Part shown: piece after piece, positions 2,804 through 20,731 of the stretch
Layout of the letters: each line of letters begins with the position of its first letter
Numbering within the stretch: the first letter of the stretch is position 1
Source: a virus
IMG/VR virus record: IMGVR_UViG_3300021375_001664
Span: 1-20,792 of that record
DNA length: 20,792 nucleotides
Strand: one strand, 5' to 3'
Notes under the pieces: model-generated
The model's input: only the letters and a program-made list of their open reading frames with translations
What the model was told of the DNA's origin: nothing
The model's database searches: none
Translations under genes and position numbers: made by a program

Positions 2804-4252
2804 ATGAAATCTATATCTGAATACAGATTAAACCCTCTCGAAGAAGAAGCAGAAATTGTTCCTTATAACGAGCTGCACGTTGTTGTATTAGGTACAGGAG
2901 ATGGTGACGGTACTTTTGCTGATATTGTTGAAGAAGTTTCTGTTAAGAGAGATATCAAATACGATTTCGTTGATATAACAAAATCGTGGATTGCTGACTC
3001 TGATATTGACATCGGAACTGTAAAGCTTCGTAACGTTGATGGCAAAGATAAAGATATTGAGATTGAAACACATAACTCAATTGTATTTGTAAGAGCAGGA
3101 GCAATCGGTACGCTTTCCTCCCAAGCGTTTGTATCCTCCTTACAAGATATTGGCTTTTTGCTTGTTAACGATTTAGAATCTATGTTAGTCTGTGATAACA
3201 AAATGTCCAACGCATTATTGTTAGGTCGTAATAATATACCGATTCCAAGAACATCATCTATCCCTAACGAACATTCTATCGAAGACGCTCATAAACGAGT
3301 AGGTGGAAAGTTCCCTGTTATTATTAAAACACTTAAAGGAACTCAAGGTGTTGGTGTAATGAAGATTGATAGTATGTCATCTTTAACAGGTGTATGTCAA
3401 TCGTTATGGAAATACGATGCTGATTTGTTAATACAAGAATTCTTTGAAATGAAATCAGATATACGTACTCTACTTGTAGGTGGTAAGATCATTGCCTCGG
3501 CAGAAAGAATACAAGCACCAGATAACAAAGACTTTAGAAACAATGTTCACCAAGGCGCAACAACAGAACCATACGATTTATCGAAGAAAGAGATTGAAGT
3601 AATTAAAGCAGCCGCAAGAGCAACAGGAGCTGTGTATTGTGGAGTAGATCATTTTGTTGATAAGAAAGGCAATCCTTATATTATCGAAGTAAATGGTTCA
3701 CCTGGTATTCGTTCTCACTTTGAAGGTTATGATCCTTGGACAGAAGAAAAGAAAGGTAAAGTTTCTGATAAGAAAGTTGTAGAAGATATTATACAATTCT
3801 TTTCTAAGGATGTCAATAGAAGACCAATCTTTAGACAAGAAGCAGGTTATATTGAAACGATTATATTTAAAGGTATGGAAAAGAATCCTGTACGTGCAAA
3901 GTTTGATTCTGGTAACAGTGCAAAAGCAAGTATGCTCCATGTTGATAAAATGGAAACAAAAGGTAAAATGGTATTTTGGGAAAAGAATGGTTATAAGTTT
4001 GAGAGTGAAGTAATATATGTCTCAAACCCAACTCGTGGTCAGAAGGCATTTGATACAAGACCTGTAATTGAACATGAGATCCTTTTCAATAACAAGAAAC
4101 ATATTGCTGAAATCGCGTTGTCATTAAAAGATACTGCATCAGAAATGTTAGTGAATAGAAAGTTAATGACTAAGTTTAAAATTGCGGTGAATCCTAATAG
4201 ACGATTCATACTATCAAACAAAACTGATAGAAACGATGAGAGTGACCACTAA
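2804..4252 (+). CDS. RimK-like ATP-grasp ligase fused to RimB-like retropepsin domain
   Basis: The 482-residue protein has two domains. Residues about 24-335 form a RimK-type ATP-grasp amino-acid ligase: an N-terminal alpha/beta domain, Lys175, the glycine loop GTQGVGV (179-185), RNNVHQGA (245-252) and the metal-binding strand EVNGSPG (295-301). RimK adds glutamates to the C terminus of ribosomal protein S6. Residues about 348-472 resemble the RimB/DUF785 retropepsin-like family, with FDSGNSA (367-373) as the D-[ST]-G catalytic loop and MLVNRKLM (448-455) as the conserved late motif. RimB is associated with removing or limiting those glutamates in Pseudomonas. The N terminus, MKSISEYRLNPLEE, looks like a capsid-targeting sequence with an L-E-E cleavage site. 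The gene has its own sigma70 promoter and no ribosome-binding site, and overlaps the next gene (TAATG). Domain calls are strong; substrate and packaging are inferred. Confidence 0.88.
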   Translation: MKSISEYRLNPLEEEAEIVPYNELHVVVLGTGDGDGTFADIVEEVSVKRDIKYDFVDITKSWIADSDIDIGTVKLRNVDGKDKDIEIETHNSIVFVRAGAIGTLSSQAFVSSLQDIGFLLVNDLESMLVCDNKMSNALLLGRNNIPIPRTSSIPNEHSIEDAHKRVGGKFPVIIKTLKGTQGVGVMKIDSMSSLTGVCQSLWKYDADLLIQEFFEMKSDIRTLLVGGKIIASAERIQAPDNKDFRNNVHQGATTEPYDLSKKEIEVIKAAARATGAVYCGVDHFVDKKGNPYIIEVNGSPGIRSHFEGYDPWTEEKKGKVSDKKVVEDIIQFFSKDVNRRPIFRQEAGYIETIIFKGMEKNPVRAKFDSGNSAKASMLHVDKMETKGKMVFWEKNGYKFESEVIYVSNPTRGQKAFDTRPVIEHEILFNNKKHIAEIALSLKDTASEMLVNRKLMTKFKIAVNPNRRFILSNKTDRNDESDH

Positions 4253-9257: not shown

Positions 9258-9286
9258 TTGACATATGATGGATTTTGTGATATAAT
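9258..9286 (+). promoter_or_regulatory. Perfect sigma70 promoter
   Basis: TTGACA (9258-9263) and TATAAT (9281-9286) are separated by 17 bases in a short intergenic gap. Transcription should start near 9292-9294, about 14 bases before the ATG at 9307. The motif matches those at 2770 and 9798 in both hexamers and spacing. Confidence 0.85.
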
Positions 9287-9306: not shown

Positions 9307-9801
9307 ATGAGTCAAGAGCTAACAAGCGTAAAGACCGACGTAGCATTAATTAAAAAAGATATCAAACAGATAGAAAGGTTTTTCTCTAAGTTTGATTATA
9401 TTGTGGAGATGTCTGCAGAAAGAGATAAGAATATTGCGGTTCAGCATGAGATTTTAAATAACGTCGCGACTAAGATAGAAAACTTAGACTATAAAATAGA
9501 AGAACACAAAACGGAGGCTGCTAAAGCTTTGGCTATAGTACACGACAGATTAGAACAATACCGTGCTTCTTCAAAAGACGATCATCAGAGATTATCTGAT
9601 AATAGCGCGCAATCTCGTAAAGAAAGAAATAGCGAGATCATGGAAGCCTTAAGTAAATTAAACGGGAACCTAGACAAACGTATCTCGGAGATGGAAGGTA
9701 GAGTAACCGCCTTGGATAGATGGAAATGGTACATGATGGGAATGGGAGCTATAATTATATTCATTCTCACTAAGTTGGATGTTGACGCAATTATTAGTTG
9801 A
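9307..9801 (+). CDS. XhlA-like coiled-coil protein with C-terminal membrane anchor
   Basis: The 164-residue protein begins TDVALIKKDIKQIERFFSKF after a short lead (residues 11-29) and is almost entirely heptad-rich helix to about residue 138. A single hydrophobic segment (about 141-156, WYMMGMGAIIIFILTK) and a short tail follow. This layout resembles haemolysin XhlA-type proteins, which in some phages sit next to holins and endolysins. Adjacent lysis genes make a lysis or membrane-effector role plausible; it could be the missing holin or a holin partner. However, it has its own perfect sigma70 promoter, which would suit early expression and a different job, such as superinfection exclusion. 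GGAAT upstream serves as a weak ribosome-binding site. Confidence 0.78.
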   Translation: MSQELTSVKTDVALIKKDIKQIERFFSKFDYIVEMSAERDKNIAVQHEILNNVATKIENLDYKIEEHKTEAAKALAIVHDRLEQYRASSKDDHQRLSDNSAQSRKERNSEIMEALSKLNGNLDKRISEMEGRVTALDRWKWYMMGMGAIIIFILTKLDVDAIIS

Positions 9802-9826
9802 CATCGGATAGATTATTTGTTATAAT
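9798..9826 (+). promoter_or_regulatory. Perfect sigma70 promoter before the primase gene
   Basis: TTGACA (9798-9803, overlapping the stop of the preceding gene) and TATAAT (9821-9826) are separated by 17 bases. Transcription should start near 9832-9834, about 26 bases before the primase ATG. No terminator is visible before the end of the window, so this promoter could drive primase, thyX, nrdA, nrdB and perhaps the downstream auxiliary genes. Confidence 0.85.
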
Positions 9827-9858: not shown

Positions 9859-10884
9859 ATGCTTGACTTTGCAGATATTCAGTATGCTCAGCACCTAGCA
9901 GGGCGACTAGACAGATATCGTATTAAAAACACTAACCCTTATAGAATCAACTTTCGTTGCCCATTATGCGGCGATTCAAAAACGAATAAATCTAAAGCTC
10001 GTGGTTGGTTACTTGAACGCGAAAACAAGTTATTTTATTATTGTCATAACTGCGGTGCAAGCCACATCTTTGGCAATTTCCTTAAGGTCGTTGATCCTCT
10101 TGCATACAATGATTATGTTGCCGAAAAGTTCATAGGCAAAGCTAATAATACGATCTCAACAGAAACATCAACTCTAGAGTCAACCAAATTTACCGAGCCG
10201 CAATTCTCTCGTTCGGATCCACTAAAAAAGTTAAAAAAAATCAGCCAGCTTGAGCATTCTCACCCAGTAAAGAAATATATAGATATACGGCAAATACCTT
10301 CTAGGCATCATTATCGACTTTATTTTGCTCCTAAGTTCAAAGAATGGATCAATGGAATAATACCAAATAAGTTTGAGAATGTTAAGAAAGATGAAGCCCG
10401 ACTTGTTATACCGTTCTTAGATAAAGACGGCAAATGTTTCGGAGTATCAGCAAGGTCAATGGATCCTGATGCATACCTTCGTTATATTACCATTATGTTC
10501 GAAGAAGTACCAAAGTTGTATGGACTCGACAAAGTAAACTTCAACGAAAAGTATTATGTTGTTGAAGGTGCGCTTGATAGTATGTTTTTATCAAATGCAA
10601 TCGCAATGAATGGAGCAGATGGTAATACTAATTCGCTCGAAAGAGTGGATAATGCAGTCTTCGTCTTTGATGCCGAACCTCGTAATTTAGAGATTCACAA
10701 AAGAATGGAACGCATTATTGATAACGGTCATAGTATTATAATATGGCCACATGATATCCCAGGCAAGGATATTAATGAAATGGTACTCTCAGGCAACATT
10801 AGTTGTGTTGAGAGTTTAATGAGAACAATAACATATAAAGGTTTAGAAGCTAAATTGAAATTTCAACAATGGAGAAGGACATAG
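9859..10884 (+). CDS. DNA primase, T4 gp61-like (DnaG type)
   Basis: The 341-residue protein synthesises RNA primers for lagging-strand replication, working with a hexameric helicase at the phage fork. The N-terminal zinc-ribbon has Cys34/Cys37 (FRCPLCGDSKTNKSKARGW) and Cys62/Cys65 (YYCHNCGA); the F-R-C-P-x-C-G-D-S-K-T run and following A-R-G-W are very close to T4 gp61. A TOPRIM fold follows: YVVEGALDS holds the catalytic Glu236 and Asp240, VFVFDAEP the Asp271, and WPHDIPGKDINEM the late acidic loop. Length matches gp61 (342). A perfect sigma70 promoter sits upstream. The ribosome-binding site is weak (CGGA). No separate helicase is in this window. Confidence 0.93.
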   Translation: MLDFADIQYAQHLAGRLDRYRIKNTNPYRINFRCPLCGDSKTNKSKARGWLLERENKLFYYCHNCGASHIFGNFLKVVDPLAYNDYVAEKFIGKANNTISTETSTLESTKFTEPQFSRSDPLKKLKKISQLEHSHPVKKYIDIRQIPSRHHYRLYFAPKFKEWINGIIPNKFENVKKDEARLVIPFLDKDGKCFGVSARSMDPDAYLRYITIMFEEVPKLYGLDKVNFNEKYYVVEGALDSMFLSNAIAMNGADGNTNSLERVDNAVFVFDAEPRNLEIHKRMERIIDNGHSIIIWPHDIPGKDINEMVLSGNISCVESLMRTITYKGLEAKLKFQQWRRT

Positions 10885-10887
10885 ATA

Positions 10888-11568
10888 ATGAAGGTTAATT
10901 TGATTAGTTTTAGTCAACCACCTCAGGCTTATGACACACCACAAAGCCTACTTGATTTAATTGCATTCTGTGCAAGAGTTAGTAATCCAAATAATCAAAA
11001 CAATACAGAGACAAACGAAAAACTTGTAAACTACTTAGTTAAACATAAACATTGGAGTCCATTAGAAATGGTCAGTGTTTGTTTAGAAGTAGAAACAACA
11101 AGAGATATAGCTCGTCAGTTTCTAAGACATCGTAGTTTTTCCTTTCAGGAATTCAGCCAACGATATGCCAACCCATTAGAGGATTTAGAGTTTGAACCTC
11201 GAGAGGCAAGATTACAAGATCCTAAGAATAGACAAAATAGTATACCTGTGGATCCTAATAATGAACAACATAGGCGTATCAACGAAGAGTTCCGAATGAG
11301 ACAATTAAGACACATCAGAGATACAGAAAATTTATACACTTGGGCTATCAGTAAAGGAATCGCAAAAGAACAAGCAAGAGCCATTTTACCAGAAGGTAAT
11401 ACGGTTTCTAGACTTTACGCAAACGGAACACTAAGATCGTGGATTCATTATATTGAATTACGTTCTGGAAATGGAACTCAAAAAGAACACATGGAACTTG
11501 CCATTGCTATTGCTGATGTAGTCGCAAAAATATTCCCACTAACAAAAAATTATATAACAACAGAATAA
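10888..11568 (+). CDS. thyX: Flavin-dependent thymidylate synthase ThyX
   Basis: The 226-residue enzyme methylates dUMP to dTMP using methylene-tetrahydrofolate, FAD and NADPH, releasing tetrahydrofolate rather than dihydrofolate. The signature RHRSFSFQEFSQRY (Arg80 to Tyr93) matches the ThyX motif R-H-R-x7-S. The C-terminal substrate-binding block LPEGNTVSRLYANGTLRSWI followed by H-Y-I-E-L-R is also conserved. Length is normal for the family, which acts as a tetramer. GGAGAAGG lies just before the ATG, and the gene begins 3 bases after the primase stop. Its cofactor could be regenerated by the SHMT at 19571, so the phage would not need dihydrofolate reductase for this step. Confidence 0.96.
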   Translation: MKVNLISFSQPPQAYDTPQSLLDLIAFCARVSNPNNQNNTETNEKLVNYLVKHKHWSPLEMVSVCLEVETTRDIARQFLRHRSFSFQEFSQRYANPLEDLEFEPREARLQDPKNRQNSIPVDPNNEQHRRINEEFRMRQLRHIRDTENLYTWAISKGIAKEQARAILPEGNTVSRLYANGTLRSWIHYIELRSGNGTQKEHMELAIAIADVVAKIFPLTKNYITTE

Positions 11569-11578
11569 AGGAGAAGGC

Positions 11579-13369
11579 ATGCAGCATTTAGGTATTGAAA
11601 TTGAAAAGAAGAGGGATAAAGGTTTATCCGAGCAGTCCTTTAAACTGTTGAAAGATTATTATTGTAAAGATAATGAGAAAACACCACAAATGGCATTTGC
11701 TCGCGCAGCAGTAGCTTTTTGTGGAAACAATATTGGACTAGCCCAGAGAATATATGATTACGTATCAAAAGGATACTTTATGTATTCTTCTCCTGTTCTA
11801 TCAAATGCACCACTTAAAGGTGAAAAAGCAAAAGCATTACCTATTAGTTGTTTTCTTTCTTATGTACCTGATACACTTGATGGACTAATTGAGCATACAA
11901 ATGAATTAAGATGGTTATCTGTTAAAGGCGGTGGTGTAGGTGGTCATTGGTCTGACATTCGTGCAGTATCAGATAAGGCACCTGGCCCAATGCCATTCTT
12001 ACATACTGTTGATGCTGATATGGTAGCTTATCGTCAAGGTAGAACACGTAAAGGATCTTATGCTGCTTATATGGATATTGACCATCCTGATATTGTAGAG
12101 TTCATTAATATGAGGATTCCTACAGGAGATGTAAATCGTAAGAATTTAAATCTTCACCATGCTGTTAACTTAACTGATAAATTTATGGAAGCAGTAAGAG
12201 ATGGTAAGCAATGGGGTTTATTAGATCCTAATGACAAATCAGTTCGTGAAATGACTGATGCTCGTAAACTATGGGAATTAATATTAGAGACAAGATACCG
12301 CACAGGTGAACCTTATGTTAACTTTATTGATACAGCAAATAGAGCATTACCTGAATCGCAAAAGGAAATGGGTTTATCAATTAAAGGATCTAATCTATGC
12401 AATGAGATACACCTTGTGACCAGCGAAGAAAGAACAGCAGTATGTTGTTTATCTTCAGTCAATTTAGAAATGTATGACGAATGGAAAGATACAAGTATGG
12501 TTAAAGACCTTATTGTATTCCTAGACAATGTATTACAGTTCTTTATTGATAATGCAGGAGATGAGATTTCAAAGGCTCGTTATTCTGCTCAACAGGAAAG
12601 ATCTTTAGGTCTTGGTGCAATGGGATTGCATTCTTACTTTCAAAGAAACTCAATTGCGTTTGATAGTCAAGAAGCAATTGATAAGAACGAAGAAATCTTT
12701 TCACATATTAAAGCAAAGTCAGTTGAAGCAACATTACAAATGGGTAAGCAACGCGGTGAAGCACCAGATATGACAGGCACAGGCCGTCGTAATGCTCATA
12801 TGTTAGCAATTGCTCCAAATGCAAACAGTTCTATGATTGTAAGTACATCACCAAGTATTGAACCTTGGAAAGCAAATGCATTTACTTCAAGAACAAGGGT
12901 GGGTAGCCACCTAAATAAAAATCCATATCTTGAAAAGGTATTGGACGATCTTGGTAAAAATACAGAAGAAGTGTGGTCAATTATTATTACTAATGGTGGA
13001 TCAGTTCAGGGTCTAGACTTCTTAGATGATCATCTAAAGGAAGTATTTAAAACGGCAATAGAACTAGATCAGCATGTACTAATCCGCTTAGCAGGAGACC
13101 GACAAAAGTATTTGTGTCAAGGACAATCTTTAAACATCTTCTTCCCGGCAGGCGCTGATAAGAGGTACTTACATACAGTACACTATCAGGCATGGGAACA
13201 AGGTTGTAAAGGTTTATATTATTTAAGAACAGAAACATCTAACCGTGCAGAAAACGTTTCCCAGAAAGTGGAACGCGAAAAGTTAGATGATATTATTAAC
13301 CCAGACTCAATAAAGTTCAGCAACGGCTCGGAGGAACAACAAGATGAGTGTATCGCCTGCGAAGGATAA
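11579..13369 (+). CDS. nrdA: Class Ia ribonucleoside-diphosphate reductase, large subunit
   Basis: The 596-residue catalytic subunit reduces ribonucleotides to deoxyribonucleotides. Cys91 (LPISCFLS) and a partner at Cys289 (AVCCLSSVNL) form the redox pair. Asn272, Cys274 and Glu276 (SNLCNEIH) are the radical-site residues, and GLYYLRTETSN carries the paired tyrosines of the radical path. The C-terminal Cys591 and Cys594 (ECIACEG) form the shuttle disulfide that glutaredoxin re-reduces. At 596 residues it is much shorter than E. coli NrdA (761). It begins directly in the catalytic helical region, so the ATP-cone that mediates dATP inhibition is missing. AAGGAGAAGG precedes the ATG. The end overlaps nrdB by 26 bases. 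Confidence 0.95.
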   Translation: MQHLGIEIEKKRDKGLSEQSFKLLKDYYCKDNEKTPQMAFARAAVAFCGNNIGLAQRIYDYVSKGYFMYSSPVLSNAPLKGEKAKALPISCFLSYVPDTLDGLIEHTNELRWLSVKGGGVGGHWSDIRAVSDKAPGPMPFLHTVDADMVAYRQGRTRKGSYAAYMDIDHPDIVEFINMRIPTGDVNRKNLNLHHAVNLTDKFMEAVRDGKQWGLLDPNDKSVREMTDARKLWELILETRYRTGEPYVNFIDTANRALPESQKEMGLSIKGSNLCNEIHLVTSEERTAVCCLSSVNLEMYDEWKDTSMVKDLIVFLDNVLQFFIDNAGDEISKARYSAQQERSLGLGAMGLHSYFQRNSIAFDSQEAIDKNEEIFSHIKAKSVEATLQMGKQRGEAPDMTGTGRRNAHMLAIAPNANSSMIVSTSPSIEPWKANAFTSRTRVGSHLNKNPYLEKVLDDLGKNTEEVWSIIITNGGSVQGLDFLDDHLKEVFKTAIELDQHVLIRLAGDRQKYLCQGQSLNIFFPAGADKRYLHTVHYQAWEQGCKGLYYLRTETSNRAENVSQKVEREKLDDIINPDSIKFSNGSEEQQDECIACEG

Positions 13370-14600
13370 CGATAGAAAATCAGGAAGAAAAATGGAAGTA
13401 TTAATTTATACTAAGTCAAATTGCCCATTCTGTGCAAAGGCAAAGGCTTGGTTTACACAACATGGATTAACATATACACAGGTGGTATTGGACGACGAAG
13501 AACAACGCCTCGCCTTTTATCAAAAAGTATCAAATGGTAGGGAAGTAAGATCCGTACCTCAGATCTTTATTGATGATAAACATATAGGTACATATAATGA
13601 CCTAATGGCAATATCCGATACAATAATTAAAAAGCAAGGTGGTCTTTTAGAGTTTTCGGAAACTTATAAACCGTTTCACTATCCTTGGGCAGTTGAAATT
13701 ACAACAAGACATGAAAAGGCTCATTGGATTGAAGATGAATTAGATCTCTCTGAAGATGTATCTGATTGGAAAGGTGGAAAGATTACACAAGTAGAAAAAG
13801 ATTATATAACAAACGTACTTAGATTATTTACTCAGTCTGATGTAGCAGTAGGTCAAAACTATTACGACCAATTTATTCCTAAGTTTAAGAATAATGAAAT
13901 CCGTAATATGTTAGGATCATTTGCAGCAAGAGAAGGTATTCATCAACGCGCTTATGCGTTATTAAATGAAACATTAGGTTTACCTGATTCTGAATATCAT
14001 GCATTCCTAGAGTATTCAGAAATGGCAGATAAGATTGATTATATGAGAAAGGCAGATCCTGCTACATTACGAGGTCTCGGTCTCTGTTTAGCAAAATCTG
14101 TATTTAACGAAGGTGTTGCTTTATTTGCTTCTTTCGTTATGTTACTTAACTTTCAACGTTTCGGTAAAATGAAAGGTATGGGTAAAGTAGTTGAGTGGTC
14201 AATTCGTGATGAATCAATTCACGTTGAAGGCAACTCAAAATTGTTTAAAGCATTCGTTAAAGAACACAGCCGTGTTGTTGATGATAGCTTCAAAAAAGAA
14301 ATTTATGAAATGTCAAAAGATATTGTAGATCTTGAAGATAACTTTATTGATCTTGCCTACGCAATGGGTAATATAGAAGGTCTGGAAAAATCCGAAGTAA
14401 AAGAATATATAAGGTATATAACAGATAGAAGATTATTACAGTTAGGCATGAAACCAAACTTCAAGGTAAAGGACAATCCACTACCTTGGTTAGAATGGGT
14501 ACTGAATGGTGCAGACCATACAAACTTCTTTGAAAATCGCGTGACTGAATATGAGGTTGCTGGTTTAGAAGGAAGTTGGGAAGATGCCTACGCAAGCTAA
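13344..14600 (+). CDS. nrdB: Glutaredoxin-NrdB fusion (ribonucleotide reductase small subunit)
   Basis: The 418-residue protein joins a glutaredoxin (about residues 17-98) to a radical-generating R2 subunit (about 105-418). The glutaredoxin part has C-P-F-C (Cys27, Cys30) and the cis-proline loop S-V-P (70-72). The R2 part keeps iron ligands Asp166, Glu197, His200, Glu256, Glu290 and His293, and the radical Tyr204, with E-x2-H-x3-Y spacing identical to E. coli. It is therefore a canonical tyrosyl-radical enzyme. Fusion would place the reductant beside NrdA's C-terminal disulfide. GGAGG at 13330-13334 supports the ATG at 13344; a second in-frame ATG at 13392 (MEVLIYTK) would trim 16 residues. 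The gene overlaps the nrdA end. Confidence 0.94.
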   Translation: MSVSPAKDNDRKSGRKMEVLIYTKSNCPFCAKAKAWFTQHGLTYTQVVLDDEEQRLAFYQKVSNGREVRSVPQIFIDDKHIGTYNDLMAISDTIIKKQGGLLEFSETYKPFHYPWAVEITTRHEKAHWIEDELDLSEDVSDWKGGKITQVEKDYITNVLRLFTQSDVAVGQNYYDQFIPKFKNNEIRNMLGSFAAREGIHQRAYALLNETLGLPDSEYHAFLEYSEMADKIDYMRKADPATLRGLGLCLAKSVFNEGVALFASFVMLLNFQRFGKMKGMGKVVEWSIRDESIHVEGNSKLFKAFVKEHSRVVDDSFKKEIYEMSKDIVDLEDNFIDLAYAMGNIEGLEKSEVKEYIRYITDRRLLQLGMKPNFKVKDNPLPWLEWVLNGADHTNFFENRVTEYEVAGLEGSWEDAYAS

Positions 14601-14612
14601 GGCGAAGGTAAA

Positions 14613-15824
14613 ATGGATTATAAACAATATTTTCATGATGTAATTGACACACTTAAAGAAGAAGGAAAGTACAGAGTATTTAATGATATAGTGCGGGAGA
14701 GAGGAAACTTTCCCAAAGCTACTTGGTATTCTAAGTATTCACCGAAAACAATTGTAAGTTGGTGTTCGAATGATTACTTAGGACAAGGTCAAAATAAGTA
14801 TGTGATAGACGCAATGCAAACTGCGTTATTGAAAACAGGAAGTGGTAGTGGAGGTACTCGCAATATTGGCGGTACCTCTCATTATCATGTTACTTTAGAA
14901 AATGTAATCGCAGCACTCCACAAAAAAGAACGCGGTTTGTTATTTACATCAGCATATGTAGCAAACGAATGGACTTTAATTGCTTTAGCAAGAATCATTC
15001 CAAACATTGCATTCTTATCTGATTCAAAAAATCACGCTTCAATGATTCAAGGTATCATACATAGTAAAGCACCAAAAAAGATTTGGCAGCATAACGATAT
15101 GGAAGCTTTAGAAAAAAGTTTAATTGAAGCAAAGGAAGAAGGTCTTATACCTTGTATTGTATTTGAATCAGTATATTCTATGGATGGTGATGTTGGACAT
15201 ATTGAAGAAATATGTGACTTAGCTGATAAATATAACGCAATCACATATATTGATGAAGTACATGCAGTTGGTCTATACGGACAAACAGGTGCAGGCTATT
15301 GCGAAAAATTAGGTTTAGAAGATAGAGTAGATATTATAAATGGAACGTTGGGAAAGGCTTTTGGATGCCATGGCGGTTATATTGCTGGTGATGATATTGT
15401 ACTTGACGCTATCAGATCTGTAGCAAGTGGATTTATTTTTACAACAAGCATGAGTCCAGTGATGGCAGCAGGAGCAATTGCTTCAATAAGATATTTAATG
15501 GATCATAACGAGCTAAGAGAGAAACATCAAGAAAGAGCTCGAGTTTTAAAAACTCTATTGATAGAGAATGGTATTGAACTACACGAAAACAGTTGCACTC
15601 ATATATTGCCTGTAATGGTTAGAGATGCAAAGAAATGTAAAGTAATGTCGGACAGGTTATTAAATGAACATGGATTATATGTACAACCTATTAATTTTCC
15701 AACAGTTGATGTGGGTTCAGAGCGGCTTAGAATTACACCAACACCACTTCACACCAATGGCATGATGGAAGATTTAGTTTCAGGTATTAAAGAAACAATT
15801 AAATGGACAGAAGAACGTGAATAA
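14613..15824 (+). CDS. hemA: 5-aminolevulinate synthase (ALAS, Shemin pathway)
   Basis: The 403-residue PLP enzyme condenses glycine and succinyl-CoA to 5-aminolevulinate, the first committed step of haem and other tetrapyrroles in alphaproteobacteria. Very close similarity to Rhodobacter-type ALAS is visible along the whole length: start [36 protein letters not shown] (77-92), [20 protein letters not shown] (184-203), [12 protein letters not shown] (212-223), NGTLGKAFG with PLP Lys248, and [11 protein letters not shown]. Thr82 in G-G-T-R-N lies at the position that favours glycine in ALAS and is Ser in related oxoamine synthases. Length is full and no motif is missing. GAAGG precedes the ATG. 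It heads a tightly overlapping auxiliary operon. Confidence 0.96.
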
Positions 15825-16413
15825 AGTCCACCCAGCATTTAGTACACCAATATTTAAAGATGTTATAAATTTAAATAAAGATATACTGAATCCTGTTTTA
15901 AAGAAGATGCCTTTTAAAAGAATTAATACTGATGACAGATGTCATTCACAAGATTATAAAGTATTAGATAACGATTTAGCGTTTTTAAAGAATCGTATAT
16001 TACAAAAGGTTGACGAATACGCTTATGATGTTTTAGGTTTTGCCAATAGGCATAAAATTAAAATAACAGATAGTTGGGTTATGAAACATTTTTCAGGAGA
16101 TGGTTCTGAAATGCATTGGCATCCTAATAGTATTATATCAGGTTGCTTATATTTACAAACAGATCCGCAGAGCGGTAATATTTGTTTCTTTAGAGAAAAA
16201 AGTATGTTTAACGATGTACTTGATTTTGAAATTATAGAAAACAATATAAACGCAAAAGAAGTACAGGTTACACCAACAGATGGAATGATATTATTATTTC
16301 CGTCAACTACTAAACATGGTGTTAATCCGTCAAGAAGTGAAGTGCCAAGATTCTGTCTTGCATTTAACACATGGATAGAAGGAGACCTCGATCCACCTTT
16401 TAGAAGCTTATGA
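15817..16413 (+). CDS. Putative 2OG-Fe(II) oxygenase
   Basis: The 198-residue protein resembles the 2OG-FeII_Oxy_5 family (PF13759/TIGR02466 type) common in marine phages and cyanobacteria. [20 protein letters not shown] (residues 99-118) supplies candidate iron ligands His100/His102. [14 protein letters not shown] supplies His167, and R-F-C-L-A-F-N-T-W supplies Arg178 for 2-oxoglutarate binding. Expected chemistry is oxygen- and 2-oxoglutarate-dependent hydroxylation; the substrate cannot be read from sequence. The start is GTG at 15817, overlapping the end of hemA by 8 bases, and the stop overlaps the next ATG. Its place between hemA and the alternative oxidase raises a tetrapyrrole- or quinone-related substrate, which is speculation. 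Confidence 0.82.
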
Positions 16414-16973
16414 GAGATTACATAGCAAAAAGCATGACAAAGTTTTTTCGGTTCTTTGCCGATACATTCTTTGCTAAACGATATGGACATAGAGCAGTTG
16501 TTCTAGAAACAATAGCAGGTGTACCTGGCATGGTCGCAGGTATGTGGGTTCATTTAAAAAGTTTAAGAAAAATGGAAACAGGCCATGGACCAATGATTCG
16601 TGAATTACTTGCTGAAGCTGAAAACGAAAGAATGCATTTAATGTTCTTTATTGAAATAGCAAAGCCAAATGTATTTGAAAGATGGCTTATATTATTAGCG
16701 CAAGGAATCTTTTGGAATTTTTATTTCGTTATGTATATTACAACACCAAAGACTGCCCATAGAATGGTTCATTACTTTGAAGAAGAAGCCGTCAGAAGTT
16801 ATACAGATTATCTTTCTCTAGTTGAAAGCGGCCAAGTAGAAAATGTAGCTGCTCCTGAACTTGCGATTAATTATTACAAATTACCAAAGAAAGCATTATT
16901 GTCTGATATGATAAAGAAAGTTCGAGCAGACGAACAAAAACACAGTGATGTTAACTGGAGATATTCACAATGA
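16410..16973 (+). CDS. aox: Alternative oxidase (di-iron ubiquinol oxidase)
   Basis: The 187-residue protein is a membrane-bound quinol oxidase that reduces oxygen to water without pumping protons or using haem. All di-iron ligands are present: Glu33 (LETIAGVPGMVAGMWVHLKS), Glu73 and His76 (EAENERMHL), a Glu of EEEAVRSYT (124-126), and Glu175 and His178 (RADEQKH). Other AOX hallmarks are QGIFWNFYF, TPKTAHRMVHYFEEEAVRSY and the start of the last core helix. It is compact compared with eukaryotic forms (about 300), lacking an N-terminal extension. Cyanophages carry the related plastoquinol oxidase PTOX, but this sequence reads as the respiratory type. ATGA overlaps link it to the genes on both sides. 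Confidence 0.95.
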   Translation: MRDYIAKSMTKFFRFFADTFFAKRYGHRAVVLETIAGVPGMVAGMWVHLKSLRKMETGHGPMIRELLAEAENERMHLMFFIEIAKPNVFERWLILLAQGIFWNFYFVMYITTPKTAHRMVHYFEEEAVRSYTDYLSLVESGQVENVAAPELAINYYKLPKKALLSDMIKKVRADEQKHSDVNWRYSQ

Positions 16974-17794
16974 AATGGTTAACACTATTTACATCCCTTA
17001 CTTTAGCAGCAACAGCTGCCTACTTTAGTATAATAGGATTAATGACAATCTTTAGTGGTGCTGCTGTCAGTATCGCAATTATGGCAACTGTATTAGAATT
17101 TGGTAAACTTGTATCAGCCGCTTGGTTGCACTATGAGTGGGACCGCATAAATAATTTAGTACGAGGTTATTTTACAACTGCAGTAATTGTATTAATGCTA
17201 ATTACCTCAATGGGTATCTTTGGATTTTTATCAAAGGCTCATATTGACTCGGCATTAGTATCAGATAGCTTTTCTTTGGAAGCAAGTATTATTGATACGA
17301 GAATAGCTGCAGAGCAATCTAAACTTAAAGCAGCACAAGATCGTATTGAAGGTTTAGATTATGTTTTAACTACTTCACAGCCAAAAGATCGTAACTATGT
17401 GAATGGCCGTCAAACAGAAGAAAGAAATAATTTAGCAATAACTATTGACAAAGCAGTAGAAAGTATTGTAAAATATAACGAACAGAAGTTACCAATACAG
17501 AGACAACAATTAGAACAAGAATCAGAACTTGGTCCTGTTAAATATATCGCTGATATGATCTACGGATCTGAAGCAAAAGAATTTTATGACGATGCAGTAC
17601 GATGGATAATACTTACAATTATTTTTGTATTTGACCCATTAGCAATTATGTTATTAATTGTAAGTACAGCAGCGTTTAAACGTGAGCGCGAGGCTCCTGC
17701 TAAACCGTTGGTTGATAACAGTCAAGTAATGAACATGGAGATTGAAGAAAAAAGAAGTGGATTAACCTCCACAATTAATAGAAGGAAAATATGA
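16970..17794 (+). CDS. Four-helix membrane protein of unknown function, marine T4-like family
   Basis: The 274-residue protein has three N-terminal membrane helices (about 6-27, 30-53 and 67-87), a large charged, partly coiled-coil loop (about 90-208) and a fourth helix (about 210-234), then a basic cytoplasmic-looking tail. The motif ATVLEFGKLVSAAWLHYEWD at the end of helix 2 and start of the first turn is distinctive. I recall similar proteins in cyanophages and pelagiphages, unnamed. It overlaps alternative oxidase (ATGA) and groES. Membrane location beside a respiratory oxidase suggests an inner-membrane role, possibly scaffolding, ion flux or exclusion. No catalytic motif is visible. Confidence 0.8.
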   Translation: MKWLTLFTSLTLAATAAYFSIIGLMTIFSGAAVSIAIMATVLEFGKLVSAAWLHYEWDRINNLVRGYFTTAVIVLMLITSMGIFGFLSKAHIDSALVSDSFSLEASIIDTRIAAEQSKLKAAQDRIEGLDYVLTTSQPKDRNYVNGRQTEERNNLAITIDKAVESIVKYNEQKLPIQRQQLEQESELGPVKYIADMIYGSEAKEFYDDAVRWIILTIIFVFDPLAIMLLIVSTAAFKREREAPAKPLVDNSQVMNMEIEEKRSGLTSTINRRKI

Positions 17795-18060
17795 GTACAT
17801 TAACAATGATTGGAGGGCAGGTATTAATTGCCGCTGCTCCTAGAGAAGAAAAGACTGAAGGTGGAATTATTCTATCTTCAGATGTAAAGAAAACAGCATC
17901 GGAGCCTGGTATCGTAATGGCACACGGACCTGATGTAAAAGAACCAATTGTAAAAGGCGTTACTGTTTATTTAGATTGGAGTAAAGCAATGGCAGTTAGA
18001 GTTGGTGGTAATGATGCAGTGATTGTTCATCAAGAATTCATAAAGGCGGTCATATCATGA
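17791..18060 (+). CDS. groES: GroES-type co-chaperonin (Cpn10)
   Basis: The 89-residue protein has the Cpn10 beta-barrel layout. A mobile loop (about residues 17-35, PREEKTEGGIILSSDVKK) binds the host GroEL ring. It is followed by S-E-P-G-I-V-M-A-H-G-P-D, G-V-T-V-Y-L-D-W and D-A-V-I-V-H-Q-E-F-I-K-A-V. Length is slightly below bacterial GroES (about 97), partly from a shortened roof region. No groEL is in the window, so it would act with the host chaperonin, as T4 gp31 and other phage GroES-like proteins do for capsid protein folding. It is joined to its neighbours by ATGA overlaps on both sides, unusual company for a capsid-folding factor. Confidence 0.9.
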   Translation: MSTLTMIGGQVLIAAAPREEKTEGGIILSSDVKKTASEPGIVMAHGPDVKEPIVKGVTVYLDWSKAMAVRVGGNDAVIVHQEFIKAVIS

Positions 18061-18473
18061 GTATTAAAAAATTAGCATGGATGGGTTTAGGATTCTTAAG
18101 TTTAGGTGTAGCATATATTGGTGTTATACTCCCAGGTATACCTTTTAGTATTCCTGCTGTATTTGCCGCTTACTGTTTCGCAAAGAGCTCAGATAAGATG
18201 CACGCTTACTTGTATAACCATAAACTCTTTGGTCCATTCTTAACGAACTGGGAAACAAAGAAAGTGTTTCCGCAAAGGGCAAAGTATATGATGTTAGGAT
18301 TTATGGCATTTGCTTTAATTCTAATGATAGTGACAACTGGAAATTGGAAGGCAGTTGCATACTCAGGAACCTTTATGGCACTGGGAGCAATGTGGGGATG
18401 GCGGTATCCTTCTACCCCTGAAGAATACGATCGTCGCAAAGCAGCAGGGGAAAGGATAGGTTTATTTAAATGA
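18057..18473 (+). CDS. DUF454 (YbaN-like) inner-membrane protein
   Basis: The 138-residue protein matches the DUF454/YbaN family: LSLGVAYIGVILPGIPFSIP, AVFAAYCFAKSSDKMHAYLY and N-H-K-L-F-G-P in the first half, then K-V-F-P-Q-R-A-K leading into two further helices (about 77-92 and 97-115). The family is widespread in Proteobacteria as small inner-membrane proteins with no established biochemical function. It seems complete. Translation is coupled by ATGA overlaps to groES upstream and to the 87-residue gene downstream. Together with alternative oxidase and the four-helix protein it adds a third membrane protein to this operon, pointing to inner-membrane remodelling. Confidence 0.88.
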   Translation: MSIKKLAWMGLGFLSLGVAYIGVILPGIPFSIPAVFAAYCFAKSSDKMHAYLYNHKLFGPFLTNWETKKVFPQRAKYMMLGFMAFALILMIVTTGNWKAVAYSGTFMALGAMWGWRYPSTPEEYDRRKAAGERIGLFK

Positions 18474-18733
18474 ACGAAAAACAACCATTTGATGATGACG
18501 GAAAAATTGATTATCAACGGTGGTTAAGAATGAATGCGTTTATCAGCCATATACATGAAATGCGTAGACTTGCAGAACAAGAATCAGTAAAACAATGGAG
18601 ACATCGTAGAAACGAAATGTTACTTGATCTTGATATGATAGATAACGTTGTAGATATGATGGATGAATATCCTGAAGCTGATTATTTGATAAACAAAATT
18701 TTAAGAAGAATAGATAATGACAAAAAGTACTGA
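18470..18733 (+). CDS. Small hypothetical phage protein (87 residues)
   Basis: The protein is short, charged and mostly helical, with a central HRRNEMLLDLDMIDNVVDMM segment. It has no signal peptide, membrane segment or recognised motif. The ATG overlaps the DUF454 stop (ATGA), and its 3' end overlaps the next small gene by 17 bases. Conservation of the coupled arrangement is the main evidence that it is translated. Function is unknown. Confidence 0.7.
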   Translation: MNEKQPFDDDGKIDYQRWLRMNAFISHIHEMRRLAEQESVKQWRHRRNEMLLDLDMIDNVVDMMDEYPEADYLINKILRRIDNDKKY

Positions 18734-19570: not shown

Positions 19571-20731
19571 ATGTTAGATGAAAGAATCAATAAGATTTAC
19601 CAAAAAGAATTGTCACGTCAAAAATTAACCACAGAACTGATTGCTTCAGAGAACTTTGCTTCGAAGGCAGTTATGAAACTTTGTGGTTCAGAGTTTACAA
19701 ACAAATACGCAGAAGGATATCCAGGTGCTCGTTATTATAACGGTTGCGAATTTATGGATGAAGTTGAAACCTTGGCAATTGATAAACTCAAAGATCTATA
19801 CGGTTGTGAATTCGCAAATGTTCAACCACATAGTGGAGCAAATGCAAACCTTGCTGTATATAAAGCATTCCTAAACCCAGGAGATACTATTCTTGGAATG
19901 GATTTAGCAAGTGGTGGTCATTTAACTCATGGAGCTCCTGTTACGATTTCAGGTAAATGGTTTAATGCTCATACTTATGGTGTTGATGAAAATGGTTTAA
20001 TTGATTACGAAGAAGTTGCTGGGTTAGCTCAACAACATAAACCTGATATTATCGTCGCAGGCGCAAGCGCGTATCCAAGACAAATTGATTGGGTAAGGTT
20101 CAGAGCAATTGCTGATTCCGTTGGTGCATTACTTATGGTTGACATGGCTCACTATTCTGGTTTAATCGCAGGTGGTGCATATGACAATCCAGTTCCTTAT
20201 GCAGATGTCGTTACTTCTACAACTCATAAAACATTACGTGGACCTCGTGGTGGAATTATATTATGGAACAATCCTGACTATACAAGAAAGCTTAATGGAG
20301 CAATCTTCCCAGGTACTCAAGGTGGACCATTAATGAATATCATTGCTGCTAAAGCTCAAGCATTTGTTGAAGCTGATACTGGAGAGTTTAAAGATTATTC
20401 TCGAAAGGTAGTTGAAAATGCAAAGGCATTGGCAAAAGTATTAAATGATAGTAAAACATTAAGTGTATTATCAGGTGGTACTGATTCTCATATTATATTA
20501 GTAAGCTTGGTTGATTCTGAATTGAGTGGAAGAGAAGCTGCTGATATCTTAGAGAAACATCGTATTACAGTCAACAAGAATGGTATTCCTAACGATCCTC
20601 GAAACTTTAAAGAAACAAGTGGTATTCGTATTGGTACAGCCGCAGAAACAACTCGTGGTAAAACTAAAACTGAATGGGAAGAGTTAGGACATCAAATCGT
20701 TTCTATTTTAGAGGATCCAACACAATGGTAG
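19571..20731 (+). CDS. glyA: Serine hydroxymethyltransferase
   Basis: The 386-residue PLP enzyme interconverts serine plus tetrahydrofolate with glycine plus methylene-tetrahydrofolate. Hallmarks are LIASENFASKAVM, NKYAEGYPGARYYNGCEFMD (44-63), NVQPHSGANANLAVY, GGHLTHGAPV, MVDMAHYSGLIAGG (Asp191, His194), and TSTTHKTLRGPRGG with PLP Lys220. It is somewhat shorter than bacterial GlyA (about 417), mainly at the C terminus, but no core motif is missing. It begins 2 bases after the glutaredoxin stop. Products link two other genes here: glycine is the ALAS substrate, and methylene-tetrahydrofolate feeds ThyX. The 3' end overlaps the next ATG. Confidence 0.95.
   Translation: MLDERINKIYQKELSRQKLTTELIASENFASKAVMKLCGSEFTNKYAEGYPGARYYNGCEFMDEVETLAIDKLKDLYGCEFANVQPHSGANANLAVYKAFLNPGDTILGMDLASGGHLTHGAPVTISGKWFNAHTYGVDENGLIDYEEVAGLAQQHKPDIIVAGASAYPRQIDWVRFRAIADSVGALLMVDMAHYSGLIAGGAYDNPVPYADVVTSTTHKTLRGPRGGIILWNNPDYTRKLNGAIFPGTQGGPLMNIIAAKAQAFVEADTGEFKDYSRKVVENAKALAKVLNDSKTLSVLSGGTDSHIILVSLVDSELSGREAADILEKHRITVNKNGIPNDPRNFKETSGIRIGTAAETTRGKTKTEWEELGHQIVSILEDPTQW

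Follow-up and report, generated by a model that had tools for sequence, protein, structure and literature searches.

A T4-like phage locus that joins 5-aminolevulinate synthase to a DUF454 membrane protein and an alternative oxidase

Gene content and identity of the phage ALAS

The sequence analysed here (the window) is the whole 20,792-base stretch of the IMG/VR virus record IMGVR_UViG_3300021375_001664, and the gene in question encodes a full-length 5-aminolevulinate synthase (ALAS, vAlaS) at positions 14613-15824, preceded by nucleotide-synthesis genes and followed by genes for an alternative oxidase (AOX) and a DUF454 membrane protein. Judged by its T4-type core genes (primase phrog_47, class I ribonucleotide reductase, T4-type lysozyme), the source is a T4-like phage known from environmental DNA only, with capsid and tail genes lying outside the window. 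The features of the cluster, all on the plus strand, are as follows.

9798-9826, +: perfect sigma-70 promoter (TTGACA, 17 nt spacer, TGnTATAAT) before the primase-nrd-ALAS-AOX-DUF454 cluster
9859-10884, +: T4-type DNA primase (phrog_47, 1.7e-70)
10888-11568, +: ThyX, FAD-dependent thymidylate synthase (TIGR02170, 153 bits)
11579-13369, +: NrdA, class I ribonucleotide reductase large subunit (NF006577, 781 bits)
13344-14600, +: NrdB with fused glutaredoxin, directly upstream of ALAS (NF009398, 685 bits)
14613-15824, +: ALAS, 403 aa (TIGR01821, 551 bits; catalytic residues kept; phage clade 100/100)
15817-16413, +: 2-oxoglutarate (2OG)-Fe(II) oxygenase between ALAS and AOX (PF13759, 1.5e-21; phrog_81)
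16410-16973, +: AOX, 187 aa (PF01786, 233 bits; di-iron ligand residues present)
16970-17794, +: 274-aa conserved protein of no known family, kept downstream of ALAS in the nrdAB lineage
17791-18060, +: GroES/Cpn10-like protein (PF00166, 4.8e-10)
18057-18473, +: DUF454 (YbaN-like) membrane protein (PF04304, 92 bits)
18470-18733, +: 87-aa protein conserved in the lineage, closing the overlapping run (gene layout, neighbourhood comparison)
19571-20731, +: serine hydroxymethyltransferase (SHMT; NF000586, 563 bits)

The ALAS reading frame is open and complete from its ATG start, and the purine-rich stretch GGCGAAGG was found upstream of this ATG. The sequence-only reading had described an intact, full-length ALAS, which our analysis confirms, as the motifs GGTRN (at 80) and DEVHAVG (at 214) and the lysine at 248 were all located. 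Besides this pyridoxal phosphate (PLP) lysine (K248), the protein keeps R21, T83, N85, H142, E185, S189, D214, H217, T365 and R374 (R. capsulatus numbering), and it is presumably active. Pairwise dN/dS values among close phage homologues were low (about 0.09-0.24 for ALAS, about 0.07-0.24 when ALAS and AOX are taken together), from which it follows that both genes are under purifying selection.

A different identity among the alpha-oxoamine synthases, as 2-amino-3-ketobutyrate ligase (KBL), BioF or a serine palmitoyltransferase-like enzyme, is very improbable. These enzymes share the fold family, and the models for glycine C-acetyltransferase, BioF and serine palmitoyltransferase do match, but each below its own cut-off, and only the TIGR01821 equivalog cut-off was passed (551.3 vs. 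338.55 bits, residues 1-395). Identity reaches ~50-57% to a set of alphaproteobacterial ALAS against ~30-37% to the other alpha-oxoamine synthases of the same bacteria, and every ALAS residue checked is kept; an identity as KBL or BioF was therefore rejected on model cut-offs and identity comparison. The nearest solved structures are likewise ALAS (7x98, E 1e-129; R. capsulatus ALAS 2bwn, E 1e-120), with KBL at 3e-60.

Operon layout and transcription

The genes run in the order primase, thyX, nrdA, nrdB-grx, ALAS, 2OG oxygenase, AOX, 274-aa gene, GroES-like gene, DUF454 gene and 87-aa gene. Beyond a gap there follow two further small genes, one of them glutaredoxin-like, and then SHMT. Only 12 nt separate nrdB-grx from ALAS, and from ALAS through the 87-aa gene (to 18733) adjacent genes overlap by 4-8 nt, so the earlier claim of a phage operon holds. 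The same reading had called the company of ALAS striking, and this company is real, although its key members, AOX and DUF454, had gone unnamed. A host or chimeric origin of the contig is a next to negligible alternative: the record is metagenomic and several of its genes are metabolic, but genes for a T4-type primase, a lysozyme and Rz-like spanins are present on it, its gene order recurs in tens of other viral contigs, and IMG/VR lists it as a virus.

The promoter at 9798-9826 has an extended -10 element, and a second perfect sigma-70 promoter lies at 9258-9286. A perfect promoter precedes the primase gene (within 1 kb) in 46/46 relatives, redundant contigs counted, at a distance of about 57-70 nt in almost all relatives listed. 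Between the promoter at 9798-9826 and SHMT, terminator-like sites on the plus strand come down to a single weak one, located within AOX; overall, such sites are about as numerous as chance would give. Given the conserved perfect promoter and the few terminator-like sites, early transcription of the ALAS cluster by the host polymerase appears likely. The T4 late promoter motif TATAAATA was also considered and was set aside, its occurrence being at chance level. Elsewhere in the window, another perfect sigma-70 promoter (2770-2798) stands ahead of a gene (2804-4252) for an ATP-grasp-like protein related to the ribosomal protein S6 glutaminyl transferase (phrog_2599).

Few relatives have a 2OG-Fe(II) oxygenase between ALAS and AOX. 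The 274-aa protein (16970-17794), which is kept in the same operon throughout the phage lineage of the window, had no Pfam, PHROG or NCBIfam match and is predicted to be all-helical with hydrophobic N- and C-terminal parts, in a low-confidence model too poor to use.

Phylogeny of phage ALAS

ALAS relatives are encoded on 518 IMG/VR stretches, of which the best 80 were used. After reduction at 95% identity the set comprised 52 viral ALAS (window included) and six from bacterial assemblies. These 58 sequences form a single clade against bacterial ALAS, on a long stem (SH-aLRT 100), and a careful tree of 48 rows recovered the phage clade at 100/100 with the window ALAS inside. The published CB_2 ALAS is absent from these trees. 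A tryptophan at position 120 (the position of R. capsulatus Ala121) is found in 58/58 ALAS of the phage clade and in 0/52 bacterial ones, which have Ala or Thr.

The clade has an alphaproteobacterial affinity, as had been proposed for the window ALAS; with an uncertain root among the ALAS of alphaproteobacteria, a position inside them and one as their sister cannot be told apart. The further proposal that this similarity points to the host is not supported. Phage ALAS are monophyletic with a long stem, so the gene was acquired long ago and says little about the present host, and the hosts suggested for published ALAS phages include alpha- as well as gammaproteobacteria (PMC11480375). Comparison with the closest isolates gave no near relative of the window phage, and the nearest ones conflict, with the primase pointing to Sinorhizobium phages (45%) and NrdA to the Methylophilales phage Melnitz (72%).

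Phage-clade ALAS also occur in bacterial assemblies. Three contigs of "Rhodobacteraceae Water_Bin34" (L160, L164, L188) carry one beside phage genes, which in two of the three include a primase of phage type; these contigs probably belong to phages and were placed in a bacterial bin by mistake. Others are found in a Neomarinimicrobiota metagenome-assembled genome (MAG; L161) and a Flavobacteriales MAG (L162). The remaining case is a symbiont of the louse Polyplax serrata, Neisseriaceae bacterium PsAf (WNLJ01000010.1, L163:8001-9167), whose ALAS is nested in the phage clade as sister (99/94) to the phage contig L079, which carries a virion-protein gene. It has the Trp of the phage clade, is flanked by ordinary bacterial genes, and is the only ALAS relative at such identity among 83 Neisseriaceae genomes. 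The PsAf genome, an incomplete draft, encodes porphobilinogen synthase and has no glutamyl-tRNA reductase above cut-off. From these sequences, the C5 route of PsAf may have given way to a phage-type ALAS through phage-to-bacterium transfer, a case suggesting that phage ALAS can take over from a bacterium's own route to 5-aminolevulinate (ALA).

It had also been claimed that the phage enzyme bypasses host feedback on HemA, and a 2024 paper argued that many phage ALAS are without the haem-inhibition residues His342 and Cys400 (PMC11480375). His342 of R. capsulatus ALAS is indeed missing from all 52 phage ALAS, but it is equally missing from 52/52 bacterial ones (mostly Leu), and the loss of this residue is therefore no adaptation of phages; a Cys within the last 14 residues occurs in 4/52 phage and 2/52 bacterial ALAS. 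On this sample, escape from haem feedback was rejected as a phage-specific trait. The bacterial ALAS were those nearest to the phage ones, and other bacteria may thus differ at His342.

Companions of ALAS in phage genomes

Companions were counted in 41 non-redundant phage loci (locus clusters) with at least 2.5 kb downstream of ALAS. In 40 of them a DUF454 gene is found no more than 5 kb from ALAS, on three backbones, i.e., one with the nrdAB of the window, one with other nrd genes and one with neither, and loci that have ALAS and DUF454 but neither AOX nor SHMT are common. From this linkage, DUF454 and ALAS probably serve one and the same process, in tetrapyrrole metabolism or at the membrane. 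A search of the PDB gave no match for its fold. A haem function was also sought in bacterial neighbourhoods and was not adopted, since the 60 neighbours of DUF454 in 30 loci (Apt-type, PriC, ParB and a few HemN-type radical-SAM proteins) give no clear haem link. Haem oxygenase and DUF454 are both reported to be among the commonest domains beside type XI secretion system (T11SS) genes (PMC12282271), which is suggestive only.

SHMT makes glycine, a substrate of ALAS, and methylene-tetrahydrofolate, which ThyX uses. It lies downstream of ALAS in 9/17 non-redundant loci of the window's lineage, and its role fits the cluster but is not general among ALAS phages. In several alphaproteobacterial genomes (L165-L167, L170, L171, L176, L189) SHMT follows ALAS on the same strand at a distance of ~1.3-2.3 kb, as it follows ALAS in part of the window's phage lineage.

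The window AOX scores 233 bits against a PF01786 gathering cut-off of 22.7, and its nearest solved structures are trypanosomal AOX. The ligand motif residues E33, E73, H76, E124/E126, E175 and H178 are invariant in 12 phage AOX, and in the AOX tree the phage sequences group separately from the bacterial ones (SH-aLRT 98 for 42 rows). AOX is found near ALAS in 10/41 loci in three arrangements: mostly just downstream of ALAS (behind the 2OG oxygenase in the window and L033), two genes upstream of ALAS in L046, and, in L078, behind DUF454 on the opposite strand. Its presence requires at least nine changes on the tree of phage ALAS (43 rows, two short loci included).

AOX also occurs in many unrelated IMG/VR phage neighbourhoods with no ALAS on the stretch seen (L083-L158), and it is a widespread phage gene that had apparently gone undescribed. 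In a phage collection of 50,697 records the window AOX matched a single one, Phage C48C1 (OQ984149.1, assigned to Kyanoviridae), where the gene (L001:15001-15564) is annotated as a hypothetical protein. The recognised cyanophage plastoquinol terminal oxidases (PTOX) in the same collection gave no match to the window AOX even at E<=1, and the latter groups with proteobacterial AOX, so an identity as cyanophage PTOX was discarded. Among bacteria, 28/289 alphaproteobacterial genomes sampled have AOX, and 0/28 genomes of the order of one "Pelagibacterales" assembly do; in such a host AOX would be a new function.

Proposed role of the cluster

We lean, by a modest degree, towards an early operon that maintains tetrapyrrole supply and quinol oxidation in infected cells. 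ALAS would probably be expressed early from the strong host-type sigma-70 promoter together with the phage nucleotide-synthesis genes, and would condense glycine, part of it from the phage SHMT, with succinyl-CoA to form ALA. This supply could keep haem and other tetrapyrroles of the host topped up after host gene expression fails, and so sustain haem for the host cytochromes during infection. AOX, a single-subunit, haem-free ubiquinol oxidase, would give electrons a haem-independent route from ubiquinol to oxygen. Together, the two enzymes might keep quinol oxidation, NADH turnover and tricarboxylic acid (TCA) cycle flux running when host proteins are no longer renewed, and the presence of AOX beside ALAS suggests that the phage remodels host respiration.

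Several observations weigh against this proposal. The window has no recognised haem protein and no recognised ferrochelatase, haem oxygenase or bilin reductase, the 30 bacterial DUF454 loci lack clear haem enrichment, and no locus of the other two phage lineages has SHMT near ALAS. In addition, 31/41 phage loci have ALAS without AOX, many phages have AOX without ALAS on the stretch seen, and, as AOX needs no haem, it could stand beside ALAS simply because one variable slot holds two unrelated cargo genes.

It is accordingly possible, if not what we favour, that ALAS alone is an ordinary tetrapyrrole-boosting auxiliary gene, with AOX and the 2OG oxygenase as unrelated optional cargo between ALAS and the 274-aa gene. 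The patchiness of AOX in the lineage (the 10/41 clusters and at least nine changes noted above), its frequency in unrelated phages, and the many relatives with nothing between ALAS and the 274-aa gene agree with this, but the three AOX-ALAS arrangements, one of them on another backbone (L078), favour a repeated functional association.

Both enzymes could instead be metabolic valves that do not serve haem, with ALAS draining succinyl-CoA and glycine and freeing CoA, and AOX burning excess NADH without ATP production, so that precursor-forming TCA flux would not be held back. AOX conserves no energy by established biochemistry, the rest of the cluster (ThyX, NrdA, NrdB, SHMT) is devoted to nucleotide synthesis, and the window has no recognised haem user, all of which would suit such valves. 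We nevertheless regard them as improbable, since ALAS flux is small relative to TCA flux in known bacteria and ALAS with DUF454 is common without AOX or SHMT.

Extending the proposal of maintained tetrapyrrole supply and quinol oxidation beyond the window, we tentatively suggest that phages of non-cyanobacterial hosts carry a respiration-remodelling module, in which an early-expressed ALAS and DUF454 as its membrane partner in tetrapyrrole handling are repeatedly joined by a haem-independent AOX that reroutes host electron transport. If true, phage AOX would represent a new class of viral energy genes, and DUF454/YbaN would be linked to tetrapyrroles. With DUF454 as a nearly universal partner of viral ALAS and AOX as a recurrent one, there are concrete handles on its purpose.

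Comparison with known systems

The gene type of the window ALAS is already known. Phage ALAS have been published, and one of them makes ALA and complements an E. coli auxotroph (Wegner 2024, PMC11480375), which bears out the earlier statement that such genes had been reported from aquatic metagenomes; they were also tracked in an estuary study (PMC13390420). Within the open-access papers covered, neither the linkage with DUF454 nor the pairing with AOX was found, and neither was AOX in non-cyanobacterial phages, the viral cases reported there being PTOX and the oxidases of algal viruses; no priority is claimed.

Like the vAlaS of phage CB_2 and aquatic contigs, the window gene is a phage-borne Shemin-pathway ALAS in a separate phage clade, with ~55% identity to alphaproteobacterial ALAS and the catalytic residues kept (PMC11480375). 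The published cassettes have alaS with hemO and pcyA/X, or alaS alone (PMC11480375), whereas ALAS is here accompanied by DUF454, to which this phage adds AOX, the 2OG oxygenase and SHMT. No hemO or pcyA/X was recognised among the scanned genes flanking it (this cassette being typical, not required), and AOX is unmentioned in the main text of PMC11480375.

Compared with R. capsulatus ALAS (PDB 2bwn), the phage protein is a whole-length homologue with the same PLP lysine K248 and active-site residues, but without His342 and with Trp120 in place of the bacterial Ala/Thr. The phage AOX shares family and di-iron ligand residues with bacterial and mitochondrial AOX (PF01786; T. brucei AOX 3vv9), and differs from the bacterial ones in forming its own group (SH-aLRT 98). 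The prasinovirus AOX/PTOX-family oxidases are also viral AOX-superfamily genes, but prasinoviruses infect green algae, and their oxidases stand near cyanophage and Micromonas sequences in the published tree (PMC12584671). With cyanophage PTOX (ptoX; PMC7472177) the window AOX has in common that it is a phage-borne quinol oxidase of the AOX superfamily; it differs in grouping with proteobacterial AOX and in having no photosynthesis genes near, and AOX in phages outside cyanobacteria would mean that a respiratory bypass is installed in heterotrophs.
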